36,490 nt of DNA from Pseudomonadota bacterium (GTDB taxonomy: Bacteria; Desulfobacterota; Desulfobulbia; Desulfobulbales; JAGXFP01), in assembly GCA_018814305.1 (NCBI GenBank), contig JAHJAA010000079.1, positions 74,130 through 110,619 of the forward strand, in the 5' to 3' direction. Position 1 is the first letter of the stretch, and every line of letters begins with the position of its first letter. This document shows, piece by piece, positions 4,326 through 20,157 of the stretch. A program made the position numbers and the translations under genes. The notes beneath the pieces were generated by a model, which ran no database searches, was not told the DNA's origin, and saw nothing but the letters and a program-made list of their open reading frames with translations.

Positions 4326-4506
4326 GGGGCACGGAAAATGCTGATATACCATAACGCATCCCGCCTTCGGGTCATCTTGGGTCGCGTCTCAATCGCAAAA
4401 TCCTCGCCGTAGCGATGCTACGCCTGTGGTTTTACTCAATCGGCGCAATCCAACCTGTCCCAAATTCGGGCGCGATCCAGGTACATCAGTATTTTCGAGC
4501 CCCTAA
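4324..4506. repeat. Long imperfect palindromic interspersed element
   Basis: The two halves of this stretch are near-complementary. AAAATGCTGATATACC (4335-4350) matches the reverse complement of GGTACATCAGTATTTT (4480-4495) at 14 of 16 positions, and outer AGGGGC/GCCCCT blocks extend the arms to 4325 and 4504. The centre closes on a small perfect hairpin (GTAGC-GAT-GCTAC). The left end abuts the stop codon of the GT4 gene. There is no coding potential. It could form a large cruciform or RNA hairpin and act as a terminator for the upstream gene. The form fits a non-autonomous repeat family. Confidence 0.6.
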
Positions 4507-4545: not shown

Positions 4546-4574
4546 TTGACCTGTCATGTCTTGGTGTCTATAAT
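4546..4574 (+). promoter_or_regulatory. Sigma-70-type promoter of the glycan locus
   Basis: TTGACC (4546-4551), exactly 17 bp, then a perfect TATAAT (4569-4574). This is the best promoter in the window. It sits 69 bp before the regulator start and immediately precedes a palindrome that would cover the transcription start. With few gaps downstream, it may drive much of the locus. Confidence 0.8.
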
Positions 4575-4591
4575 GTTCTTAAAATAAGAAC
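4575..4591. promoter_or_regulatory. Operator-like palindrome overlapping transcription start
   Basis: GTTCTTA-AAA-TAAGAAC is a perfect 7-3-7 inverted repeat beginning at the base after the -10 hexamer. A dimeric winged-helix protein bound here would cover the start site and block initiation. The gene immediately downstream encodes such a protein, so autoregulation is the simplest reading. I saw no second perfect copy in the window. Confidence 0.7.
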
Positions 4592-4642: not shown

Positions 4643-5194
4643 ATGGTTTCTCTCTTGAATAGCCTTATCACCTCTAAAACCAGGGTCAGTATCCTGATGA
4701 GGCTTTTTTTGAATCCTGCCCGCAAGGCCTATCTGCGTGAACTTGCTGATGAATTCAATATTTCAACGGGTCTCGTTAGTACCGAATTACGCCAACTTAA
4801 AGACGCCGGTTTTATAGCCAGCGAAAAGAATGGCCGACAAATCCTCTATCATGCTAACCAGCAGCATCCGCTTTTCTTTGAGCTCAACTCCATGGTCAAG
4901 AAGGCCATGGGCATGGACAGGATTTTAGACTCAATAGTAGAACGTCTCGGGGACCTTGATGCTGCATACCTGATCGATGACTATGCCGAGGGTAAGGATT
5001 CCGGTCTGATCGATCTCGTGCTGGTTGGGAATATTGATCAGACTAATCTCGCCGATCTTGTTAGCAAGACGGAGAAGTATATCGTTCGAAAAATACGGAC
5101 AATCTGTTTAACCTCTGGAGAATTTGAATCGATGTCTGGAATATTGGAGAAACGTCCCAAATTATTGATCTGGAAAAATAAGGATAATTGTTGA
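4643..5194 (+). CDS. Winged-helix regulator with degenerate nucleotidyltransferase domain
   Basis: The 183-residue protein has an ArsR/MarR-like winged helix at about residues 8-70 (SKTRVSILMRLFLNP, then LRELADEFNISTGLVSTELRQLKDAGFI, then a wing with GRQILYHAN). It is followed at about 95-175 by a fold resembling MNT-type nucleotidyltransferases. In that second domain the catalytic signature has decayed: the position of GSYARG reads DDYAEG and the DxD reads LID, so catalysis is unlikely and a ligand-sensing or dimerising role is more plausible. A purine-rich site (agaagaag) precedes the ATG. Its place between the promoter/operator and the sugar-nucleotide genes makes it the likely local regulator of the locus. 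The effector is unknown. Confidence 0.75.
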   Translation: MVSLLNSLITSKTRVSILMRLFLNPARKAYLRELADEFNISTGLVSTELRQLKDAGFIASEKNGRQILYHANQQHPLFFELNSMVKKAMGMDRILDSIVERLGDLDAAYLIDDYAEGKDSGLIDLVLVGNIDQTNLADLVSKTEKYIVRKIRTICLTSGEFESMSGILEKRPKLLIWKNKDNC

Positions 5195-15183: not shown

Positions 15184-15960
15184 ATGAGCGACCACGAAAA
15201 AGAGTATTTCAACACCCCGGAATATATTGCTTATCTCAAGCGGAACTGTGAACTTATTGATCGTGACACCGGAAACCGCGATGAGACCTTCACCAGTCCC
15301 CATATGGATATTATCATTAAATATACTGACCAACTGGGAATCGAACCAGGACGACAAATGCTTGAGATAGGTTGTGGTTTGGGCCGTTTAGTCGATTATC
15401 TAGGAAAACATTACGGGATAGATATCAGTGGCATTGATGTCTCTGACGAGACCTGTAAATTGGCCATGGAGCGCCTTTCTCAATCTTCGGGGGAAATAAA
15501 AGTCGGTTCGGCAGAAAAAATACCTTTTCCCGATTCCTCGTTTGATTATGTCCTTTGCTGGGGAGTTTTTGACCTTACTGATCAAGGCTACGCCATCGCT
15601 GAAATGCTCAGAGTATTGAAGGTCGGCGGTAAATTACTTTTGACAGGAAAAAACAATGAGTTCATGCCCGATGACGAGGATGCCCAAATAGCCGAGATTA
15701 AGTCCAGGGAAAAAAACATTCCCAATCACTACACCGATTATAATGCCCTCAAACAATTGGTCGAGTCCAATGGCGCAAATCTGGCTCTTGAGCACTTTTT
15801 CCTCAGGAGAGGGGATTTCATGGCGGGCAGATATGTAATCAATCAACCGGCTCAATTTCAAGAATATTGCGTCATAGTCCAGAAAGAGTCGATTGAGCTT
15901 CCGGTAATCAATGAGATTTCGGACTCGTACTCAAAGACCTGGAGGCAGAAGCATGGCTAA
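15184..15960 (+). CDS. Class I SAM-dependent methyltransferase
   Basis: The 258-residue protein has Methyltransf_11-type motifs: motif I MLEIGCGLGRL (59-69), the acidic end of strand 2 at Asp85 (SGIDVSD), SAEKIPFPDSSFDYVLCWGV and MLRVLKVGGKLLLTG. It should transfer a methyl group from SAM to an O, N or C atom. Within this locus a sugar or sugar-nucleotide acceptor is likely. Campylobacter legionaminate loci also contain a methyltransferase (PtmH) that decorates the nonulosonate, but orthology is not claimed. The last codons overlap the start of the next gene by 8 bases. Confidence 0.8.
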   Translation: MSDHEKEYFNTPEYIAYLKRNCELIDRDTGNRDETFTSPHMDIIIKYTDQLGIEPGRQMLEIGCGLGRLVDYLGKHYGIDISGIDVSDETCKLAMERLSQSSGEIKVGSAEKIPFPDSSFDYVLCWGVFDLTDQGYAIAEMLRVLKVGGKLLLTGKNNEFMPDDEDAQIAEIKSREKNIPNHYTDYNALKQLVESNGANLALEHFFLRRGDFMAGRYVINQPAQFQEYCVIVQKESIELPVINEISDSYSKTWRQKHG

Positions 15961-17158
15961 AAGACTCTATGTCGTTCCAATATTGAACACAATGGGGCCG
16001 GTGACTGATGCTCGTCACACAGATCTCTTAAATACGTGGGAAGAAGTCGATCGTGCAACAGCATCCTATTTTACCGACCGTTTTCGTAATACGATAATTG
16101 ACCAGCAAGGCCGACCGGTATCTATCTCATGGTTCCCAGTAAGTTGGTCTGGATTTGAGACGAATCCCGTAGAACGGGATTTTGGCTGGTTCACCATCTA
16201 TGATCATATCAACCAACGCTGGAAGGCTGATATGGACCGGTTCGGCGACGGAATTTATTGGATGTATAATCATCCTGACAAATCGGGGGTTGGGAATGCC
16301 TGGGGACTTGATTGGCTGCATAACTGTCATTATTTGAAAATTCTTAACAGGATGGTTGTACAGCGTGGGTTTTTTCCTGGTGTTGTCGAAATACCCACAG
16401 CCAATAATCATTCCTCTCATTTTGTTGAACAGTATTTCCCTTTCGACATCAGTAACAGAAATTCGCCCTTTATCAACTGGGACAATATAGAGGCGGATGG
16501 TAGAAAAACCAGAGAAATCCTCCAGTGGGCTGATGCCCCGAATAATTGGATTCCTTATCATCCAAGTGAATCGAATCATCAATGTCCCGGGGAAATGAAG
16601 CATGCTATCTTTCGACTTTTAGATATCAAAACCAGAATTATGTATTTTCCCCAGGACGAGGTGATTAAGGCCTTTGACGATTGCCGAGCCGGGCATGACG
16701 TGGTCATCGCTGGATATGAGCATGATTTCCGTGATCGCTGCGATGCTGTAATCGACTTGTTTCTTGAGCCGATCAAAATTGTTGCTCGGGATTATCCTGA
16801 TGTAGAAGTTATCAATGCTAATCTGCAGACCGCTGCAATTGAATGCTTGCATTTAAATAACGCTAAATCCGCAGGGCCCAGATTTTCTGTTGAGCTGAAG
16901 AAAGATTATGTCTGCATTCAAAGTGATACTGATCTTTTTGGTCCTACTCCCTATGTTGCAATCGAAGATTTTTCTACCGGTGAGATTCTTTCCTGTAATC
17001 CTTTTGTGGCGGGATATAGGTCGTGGGGGATCCAACTGAATTTTATACCCGGGCAAGGAAAATTGGGAATTGCCGGTTTTTCGCGAGCCGGGATACAGAG
17101 AGTGAGTTGTTATTTAATTAATGATCTGTCTTTTCAACTGATTGATGAGGGTAATTAA
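15953..17158 (+). CDS. Unrecognised 401-residue protein of the glycan locus
   Basis: I do not recognise a family with confidence. The start at 15953 follows a good GGAGG site (15941-15945) and overlaps the methyltransferase stop; the frame is open further upstream but without a better site. There is no signal peptide and no membrane segment. The sequence is rich in Trp, Tyr, His and Asp: PILNTMGPVTDARHT near the N-terminus, then WFPVSWSGF, GDGIYWMYNHPDKSG, AWGLDWLHNCHY, EIPTANNHSSHF and PFDISNRNS. This loosely recalls barrel-fold polysaccharide deacetylases or hydrolases, but no NodB metal triad is evident. A beta-rich C-terminal part follows from about residue 300. Tight coupling to the methyltransferase and to a B12 radical SAM gene suggests a sugar-modifying role. 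Confidence 0.6.
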   Translation: MAKRLYVVPILNTMGPVTDARHTDLLNTWEEVDRATASYFTDRFRNTIIDQQGRPVSISWFPVSWSGFETNPVERDFGWFTIYDHINQRWKADMDRFGDGIYWMYNHPDKSGVGNAWGLDWLHNCHYLKILNRMVVQRGFFPGVVEIPTANNHSSHFVEQYFPFDISNRNSPFINWDNIEADGRKTREILQWADAPNNWIPYHPSESNHQCPGEMKHAIFRLLDIKTRIMYFPQDEVIKAFDDCRAGHDVVIAGYEHDFRDRCDAVIDLFLEPIKIVARDYPDVEVINANLQTAAIECLHLNNAKSAGPRFSVELKKDYVCIQSDTDLFGPTPYVAIEDFSTGEILSCNPFVAGYRSWGIQLNFIPGQGKLGIAGFSRAGIQRVSCYLINDLSFQLIDEGN

Positions 17159-18615: not shown

Positions 18616-20157
18616 ATGCAGGCATCAGCAATCATGGACGTGCTCAACGAGATCGAGGTTCGATTCCCGGTTGATAAATGGCTCGTTAACAGGATCCATA
18701 TCTGGCCGCTCCTTCGGGTGCATCTGGGGGTCATGCTCTTCCATGTAATGGCTCCACAGGCGGCTCAACGACGTTCTCGTCTAGCCTCCGGCCTTTCTCT
18801 TTGCGGCGGGTTTCTTAAACATGCATTTTCCTCCATCGCTGATTCAAGCCATAATGCGCACTGTGATCATAAAGCTGATGTAGTCATGTTGAGTGACGGC
18901 ATTTCATTTTCTTCTATCGATGGGCAATGGTATGAGAAATTTTGTGATCCGATCCGAGATGCCCTGTCTTTGTCTGACGTATCATCGTTTCTTATGACCC
19001 CCCAGAATCGTTACTATCAGCCGCGTCACTCTCCTTCAATGTTCATTCATCCGGCCTTGACGACCATTTTACTGAAGAACATGTTTCGTACATCCGATCG
19101 AGATATATATAAGGCACTACCAAATTATGAGGAATTCCTGGCCTTTCTTGGGGAGAAATTTCCTCAGATGCCACTCCTGGATTCCCTTTGGTTGTCGCGT
19201 CAGATCAGGAGTTTGGAAGATATCTCCAGATATTATACTAAGATACTCAAAAAGCTTAATCCTGCAGTTGCATTTATCGTCAGTTATTATTGGACTGAGG
19301 GGATGGCCTTTATTCATGCCTGCCGACAATACGGGATTCCGGTTATTGACATTCAGCATGGCGCCCAAGGCCCTTTGCATAAGGCGTACGGTAGGTGGAT
19401 AAAGATTCCTCAAGATGGATATGAACTATTGCCTTCGCATTTTTATTGCTGGAGTGAGTACGAGGCGGAAACTATTGGGGATTGGAATAGTCAATCTCCT
19501 GGAGCCCACATCCCGATGATTGTCGGGAATCGTTGGCTTTCTTTTTGGAAAGATTCGAATAACACCGCGATCAAACGATACGATTCGCAACTCAGTCAAT
19601 TGAAAGATTCAATCCCCTCGACGTATCATCTCCTTGTAACCTTGCAACCGGAATTTTCCGGGCCGAAATTTTTGGAACCACTCTTTAAAGCCATCTCTTT
19701 GATGGGTGACTCTTTCCATTGGTGGTTTCGCCTTCATCCCATGATGATGGATAAGCGGCATCTTATCAAGAAACTTCTCAGTCAACAAATTGCGGGGCGA
19801 TTTGACTTGGATTGGTCATCTGATATTCCCTTGCCGGCTTTATTGCGTCAGGTTGATGTGCATTTGACATTCTGTTCAACGGTAATAACTGAGGCCGTTT
19901 TTTTTGGTGTGCCGTCCGTTATCTTGGATCAATTCGGGGTGGAATTTTTTCCGAAAGAGATGGAATCAGGATGGGCTGTCGCAGCGTTCTCCACTGAGGA
20001 GATAACTGAGGCCATTAAACGACAAATATTGGTGAAGGTGGATCCCTTGGGCGATATGGAAATGAGCGGAGAGTCTTTTGTGGACCCTATTTCGGAAGTC
20101 GTTTCAATGATCAGGAATATTAGGGCACAAAAAGAACTTAATGCAATCGATCGATAA
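18616..20157 (+). CDS. GT-B-like glycosyltransferase, possible nonulosonate transferase
   Basis: The 513-residue soluble protein resembles capsule-type GT-B transferases and related CMP-sugar enzymes. IPVIDIQHGAQGPLHKAY (241-258) has the His-Gly seen at the inter-domain cleft, WWFRLHPMMM lies near 364-373, and STVITEAVFFGVPSVI near 421-436 is the donor-nucleotide-side motif with its conserved Ser-Thr and Glu. The family cannot be named surely, but CMP-Kdo/sialate transferases share this pattern, and a CMP-legionaminate donor is made upstream. A second ATG at 18634 is possible. No membrane segments. It ends block B and precedes the flippase. Confidence 0.6.
   Translation: MQASAIMDVLNEIEVRFPVDKWLVNRIHIWPLLRVHLGVMLFHVMAPQAAQRRSRLASGLSLCGGFLKHAFSSIADSSHNAHCDHKADVVMLSDGISFSSIDGQWYEKFCDPIRDALSLSDVSSFLMTPQNRYYQPRHSPSMFIHPALTTILLKNMFRTSDRDIYKALPNYEEFLAFLGEKFPQMPLLDSLWLSRQIRSLEDISRYYTKILKKLNPAVAFIVSYYWTEGMAFIHACRQYGIPVIDIQHGAQGPLHKAYGRWIKIPQDGYELLPSHFYCWSEYEAETIGDWNSQSPGAHIPMIVGNRWLSFWKDSNNTAIKRYDSQLSQLKDSIPSTYHLLVTLQPEFSGPKFLEPLFKAISLMGDSFHWWFRLHPMMMDKRHLIKKLLSQQIAGRFDLDWSSDIPLPALLRQVDVHLTFCSTVITEAVFFGVPSVILDQFGVEFFPKEMESGWAVAAFSTEEITEAIKRQILVKVDPLGDMEMSGESFVDPISEVVSMIRNIRAQKELNAIDR

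Follow-up and report, generated by a model that had tools for sequence, protein, structure and literature searches.

A palindrome abutting a near-consensus promoter and a winged-helix/pseudo-MNT regulator as a probable autoregulatory switch of glycan loci

The window analyzed in this study (the whole stretch of 36,490 nucleotides) contains a glycan locus headed by a regulator gene (4643–5194, forward strand), of which the 183-aa product was resolved by Pfam, profiles and a structural model into two domains, an ArsR-like winged helix and, C-terminal to it, a pseudo-MNT domain, and is a homologue of PDC-M05A. A promoter close to the consensus and a perfect palindrome stand together upstream of this gene (4546–4591). 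We consider it highly probable that the two constitute a dedicated autoregulatory switch, in which the protein would bind the palindrome and, most likely, repress both its own promoter and the glycan operon; this reading is drawn from sequence comparisons.

The −35 hexamer TTGACC (4546–4551) and the −10 hexamer TATAAT (4569–4574), both on the forward strand and separated by a 17-nt spacer, match the consensus at 11 of 12 bases. Seven promoter-like sites were found in 4 kb against 5.2 in shuffled sequences, and the site at 4546–4574 was the best of the seven. The palindrome GTTCTTA-AAA-TAAGAAC (4575–4591; 7-nt arms around 3 nt), the predicted operator, follows TATAAT with a gap of 0 nt, and the gapless arrangement described preliminarily was thus confirmed. 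Judging from the usual spacing between −10 and +1, transcription is predicted to start near 4581, within the palindrome. About two palindromes with 7-bp arms and a fixed 3-nt gap are expected by chance per 36 kb (an arithmetic estimate), so that the palindrome alone is not significant; a palindrome of such size is weak evidence by itself, and it is the conservation in the family that makes the evidence strong. Separately, the intergenic sequence at 4335–4505, which ends approximately 40 bp upstream of the promoter, is repeated 17 times, in full or in part, in the same genome.

The palindrome may alternatively work in RNA, as a hairpin for attenuation or processing, and by itself it has a folding energy of −3.9 kcal/mol (z −7.3). 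Nevertheless, a transcript should begin inside the palindrome and be missing its left arm, Rfam yielded no match, and the two classes of sites described below share the position of the dyad but not its sequence. The first two of these points led us to reject the reading as an RNA hairpin or terminator, and we regard it as scarcely credible.

To place the predicted operator in the context of its family, 80 orthologue loci (53–76% identity), mostly of Desulfobacterota with some of Gammaproteobacteria, were retrieved by scanning a genome collection, with the peptide DDYAEGKD as one of the search patterns. All of the 81 loci (80 relatives and the window) could be scanned over 70 nt or more. A generic scan for the best palindrome was too noisy, with 36 of the 81 loci exceeding the 95th percentile of shuffled sequences, and was replaced by fixed motifs derived from it. 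Scored with these motifs, about 76 of the 81 loci bore a dyad covering the position at which transcription is predicted to start. We distinguished class A (GTTCT-N7-AGAAC; 21 loci), which accommodates the palindrome in the window, from class B (TGAGTA-N7-TACTCA; 55 loci), leaving five loci with no clear site. The raw calls had been 22, 55 and four, respectively, before L065 was set aside, in which the class-A call carried two mismatches, lay at −78 and was treated as chance. At one mismatch or fewer, class A was reached by 0.5% of the shuffled upstream regions and class B by 0%. In class A, the −10 box and the site are directly adjacent, and in class B the box extends into the left arm of the site, so that both dyads are near the predicted start; a TTGAC-type hexamer was found approximately 24–29 nt 5′ of the operator in the upstream regions of most relatives. 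The preliminary description had proposed a search for the palindrome upstream of orthologous regulators, and this search recovered the same or a co-varying version at nearly all of them.

The winged helix of the regulator matched PF01022 (ArsR-type) with 29 bits, above the gathering cut-off of 22, while the model of the full-length protein reached a pTM of only 0.53. The DNA-recognition helix is predicted, from the secondary structure of the model and the comparison of classes, to comprise residues 42–54 (TGLVSTELRQLKD; 4766–4804, forward strand), and its residues 43, 44 and 50 differ between the operator classes. Residue 43 was N in all 55 class-B loci, whereas the 21 clear class-A loci had S or G at this position; L065, set aside above, was the one exception. 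The helix starts with SPS or STG in class A (once PVS and once STS) and with STN or SSN in class B. Since the operator class changed once on the tree and many other residues also separate clades A and B, the co-variation amounts to little more than one event, with the hybrids in addition. The latter are three loci in which the two halves of the dyad, as we registered them, belong to different classes: L037 and L050, both of Desulfoluna and at the base of clade B, possess an A left half and a B right half, and L108 possesses a B left half and an A right half. The hybrid loci strengthen the co-variation of the operator with the recognition helix.

As the motifs had been read off the same 81 loci, separately collected loci provide a fairer test. 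The latter were gathered by profile search and are not fully independent, three of them being duplicates of earlier loci and others close relatives. An S/G helix occurred with an A site in 15 of them and an N helix with a B site in 13, together with a single hybrid (L108) and seven unclear loci. The unclear loci were L104 and those of six N-helix proteins at the diverged end of the family (L143–L148), a set that mostly had no operator site. The family was present in 25 of the 395 genomes of the phylum at an E-value of 1e-40. Copies of the regulator that are interrupted or consist of the C-terminal part alone were observed as well (L109/L115 in G064 and L114 in G091).

The 4.15-Mb genome from which the window derives contains one perfect copy of the palindrome, namely that in the window, and no copy that differs at one position. 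Of the five class-B genomes searched, four had one site each, and the fifth (G197) had an additional single site with one mismatch; a regulon, sought as a second site with zero or one mismatch, was found neither in the own genome nor in these five, the extra site in G197 being a weak exception. The near-uniqueness of the site in all six genomes supports a regulator dedicated to its own gene. If the palindrome were instead bound by another regulator of the host, the neighboring gene would be incidental, but the single site in the own genome, and essentially one in each of the class-B genomes searched, as well as the tracking of the site class with the recognition helix encoded next to it, are at odds with this explanation, to which we assign a small probability.

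Under autorepression, the regulator would most likely bind the palindrome as a dimer and, by abutting the −10 box and covering the predicted start, turn its own strong promoter off. The glycan genes behind the promoter (5230–29308, forward strand) lie on the strand of the promoter, separated by short gaps, and probably form one operon, which would be shut off together with the regulator, and a signal to the C-terminal domain may bring about release. The protein might also bind the palindrome and activate, or switch between activation and repression. The position of the site alone is compatible with activation, and regulators of the MerR type activate from within the spacer. On the other hand, the site covers the edge of the −10 box and the predicted start, and the promoter is near the consensus, both of which are typical of repression, making activation improbable. 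The autorepressed switch for the glycan locus, as proposed in the preliminary description, stands as the best inference from the conserved operator overlapping the promoter, with repression itself being its presumptive element.

The pseudo-MNT domain covers residues 89–183 (4907–5191, forward strand). Its AlphaFold2 model, when the domain was modeled alone, had a mean pLDDT of 78 and a pTM of 0.66, and the nearest folds were MNT antitoxins and nucleotidyltransferases: ranks 1–15 of the Foldseek search were all MNT or nucleotidyltransferase structures, as were the folds in the best ten rows of VIA-align, although the best of these (Z 8.4 and rmsd 3.2 over 87 residues) is in the caution range. 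As modeled, the C-terminal domain is of the MNT fold, and the first gene downstream of the palindrome thus encodes a winged helix joined to an MNT domain, as described preliminarily. The MNT assignment came from structure prediction and intact cousins; Pfam yielded no nucleotidyltransferase match among the 25 families listed for the orthologues.

MntA requires GSX10DXD, with D39, D41 and D71 on Mg (PMC7641770). This catalytic motif was found in none of the 117 sequences examined. In its place, the alignment with intact cousins and residue counts revealed an altered motif, D112-D113-YAEGKDSGLI-D124 (4976–5014, forward strand), with DD for GS, a two-residue deletion and the first Asp replaced by a hydrophobic residue, D124 being kept; what is lost relative to MntA is the phosphate-contacting GS pair and one Mg-binding Asp. 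All members of the 81-locus set have DDYAEGKD, an invariance that is partly ascertainment because the peptide was a search pattern, and the loci found by profile vary mildly (for example, GDYAEGKD, DDYANGKD and DEYAEGKD). The domain looks catalytically dead, while the altered motif itself is strongly conserved. Thus, the nucleotidyltransferase domain called dead and degraded in the preliminary description has the MNT fold and no catalytic motif, but the word degraded misleads. Strong constraint on the domain may reflect a new role, for instance in binding a protein partner or some general ligand.

The first genes of the glycan locus encode LegB, LegC, NeuC-like, NeuB-like and NeuD-like proteins and a CMP-transferase, corresponding to a legionaminic-type acid pathway. 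Two large ORFs in the locus (15911–17158 and 18616–20157) had no Pfam match at 1e-5. Across the family, the gene that follows the regulator shares its strand at 70 of 73 loci, and the two genes nearest downstream have mainly glycan functions, of which the kinds differ between genomes. It had also been suggested that the C-terminal domain acts as a sensor of a nucleotide or nucleotide sugar, which would be a refinement of autorepression and not exclusive with it. The MNT fold and the residues D124, R149-K150 and R152, invariant in the 81-locus set, agree with this idea, but the loss of GS and the first Asp and the two-residue deletion weigh against it, and a locus-specific sugar is unlikely because the cargo genes vary while the regulator is conserved. 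The suggestion gained no positive support, and we consider such sensing doubtful.

PDC-M05 is a candidate phage-defense system consisting of the nucleotidyltransferase M05A and a HEPN protein, with its defense role unconfirmed (PMC12988326). The window protein matched the PDC-M05A profile at 4.8e-29, as did 40 of the 40 aligned members of the family. In a profile comparison, intact wHTH-MNT cousins were linked to the family across both domains with a probability of 99.7%. These cousins are candidate defense proteins (PDC-M05A), and three of them passed the cut-offs of PF01909 and PF18765. The gene downstream of the cousin L110 matched PDC-M05B at 1.8e-42 and, weakly and below the cut-off, HEPN; the sequence downstream of L112 was judged by eye to be similar. 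The matches to PDC-M05A may suggest a working PDC-M05 or MNT-HEPN protein for toxin-antitoxin or defense functions. However, the catalytic motif is absent in 117 of 117 sequences, the neighbors are glycan genes with LegB next to the regulator and no adjacent HEPN/PDC-M05B partner, and a search of the own genome, which was run with no positive control, found no relative of PDC-M05B. We regard a working defense protein as very unlikely.

Exaptation from a wHTH-MNT toxin-antitoxin or defense protein is a reasonable inference from these sequence relationships, on a tree that includes only five intact cousins with long branches and was rooted by choosing the cousins as the outgroup. Dyad-like sequences, different in sequence, were seen upstream of the intact cousins L111, L112 and L011, which suggests that autoregulation may be ancestral. 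We are evenly divided on the full scenario, in which a wHTH-MNT protein of toxin-antitoxin or phage-defense origin, having lost its catalytic activity and the HEPN partner, came to serve variable surface-glycan loci as their dedicated and conserved regulator, and in which the natural hybrid operators record the change in DNA specificity. Searches of the open-access literature found no paper on the regulator family. If the autoregulatory reading is true, the proteins would make up a family of regulators that serve O-antigen or exopolysaccharide loci in Desulfobacterota and in some Gammaproteobacteria and, with the hybrid sites included, a natural series for the co-evolution of repressor and operator. 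In that case, matches to PDC-M05A profiles can mark glycan regulators, not defense systems.

Among known systems, the N-terminal winged helix is common to the window regulator and the ArsR/SmtB metalloregulators, for which autorepression from a dyad overlapping the promoter is typical. Unlike the latter, the window regulator bears an extra C-terminal domain and scored 44.6 bits against NF033788 (ArsR/SmtB metalloregulator), below the curated cut-off of 55. The MarR-family EPS-associated regulator TIGR04176 is also of the winged-helix type and is named for EPS loci, but the window regulator scored 12.8 bits against it (cut-off 88). The MNT fold of the C-terminal domain is common to MntA of the MntA-HepT toxin-antitoxin system (PMC7641770), although MntA is an active adenylyltransferase with GSX10DXD, whereas the window protein lacks the motif and is fused to a winged helix. 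Finally, the wHTH-MNT architecture is shared with PDC-M05A (PMC12988326), from which the window protein differs in that no PDC-M05B was found, the catalytic motif is lost, and the gene heads glycan loci.
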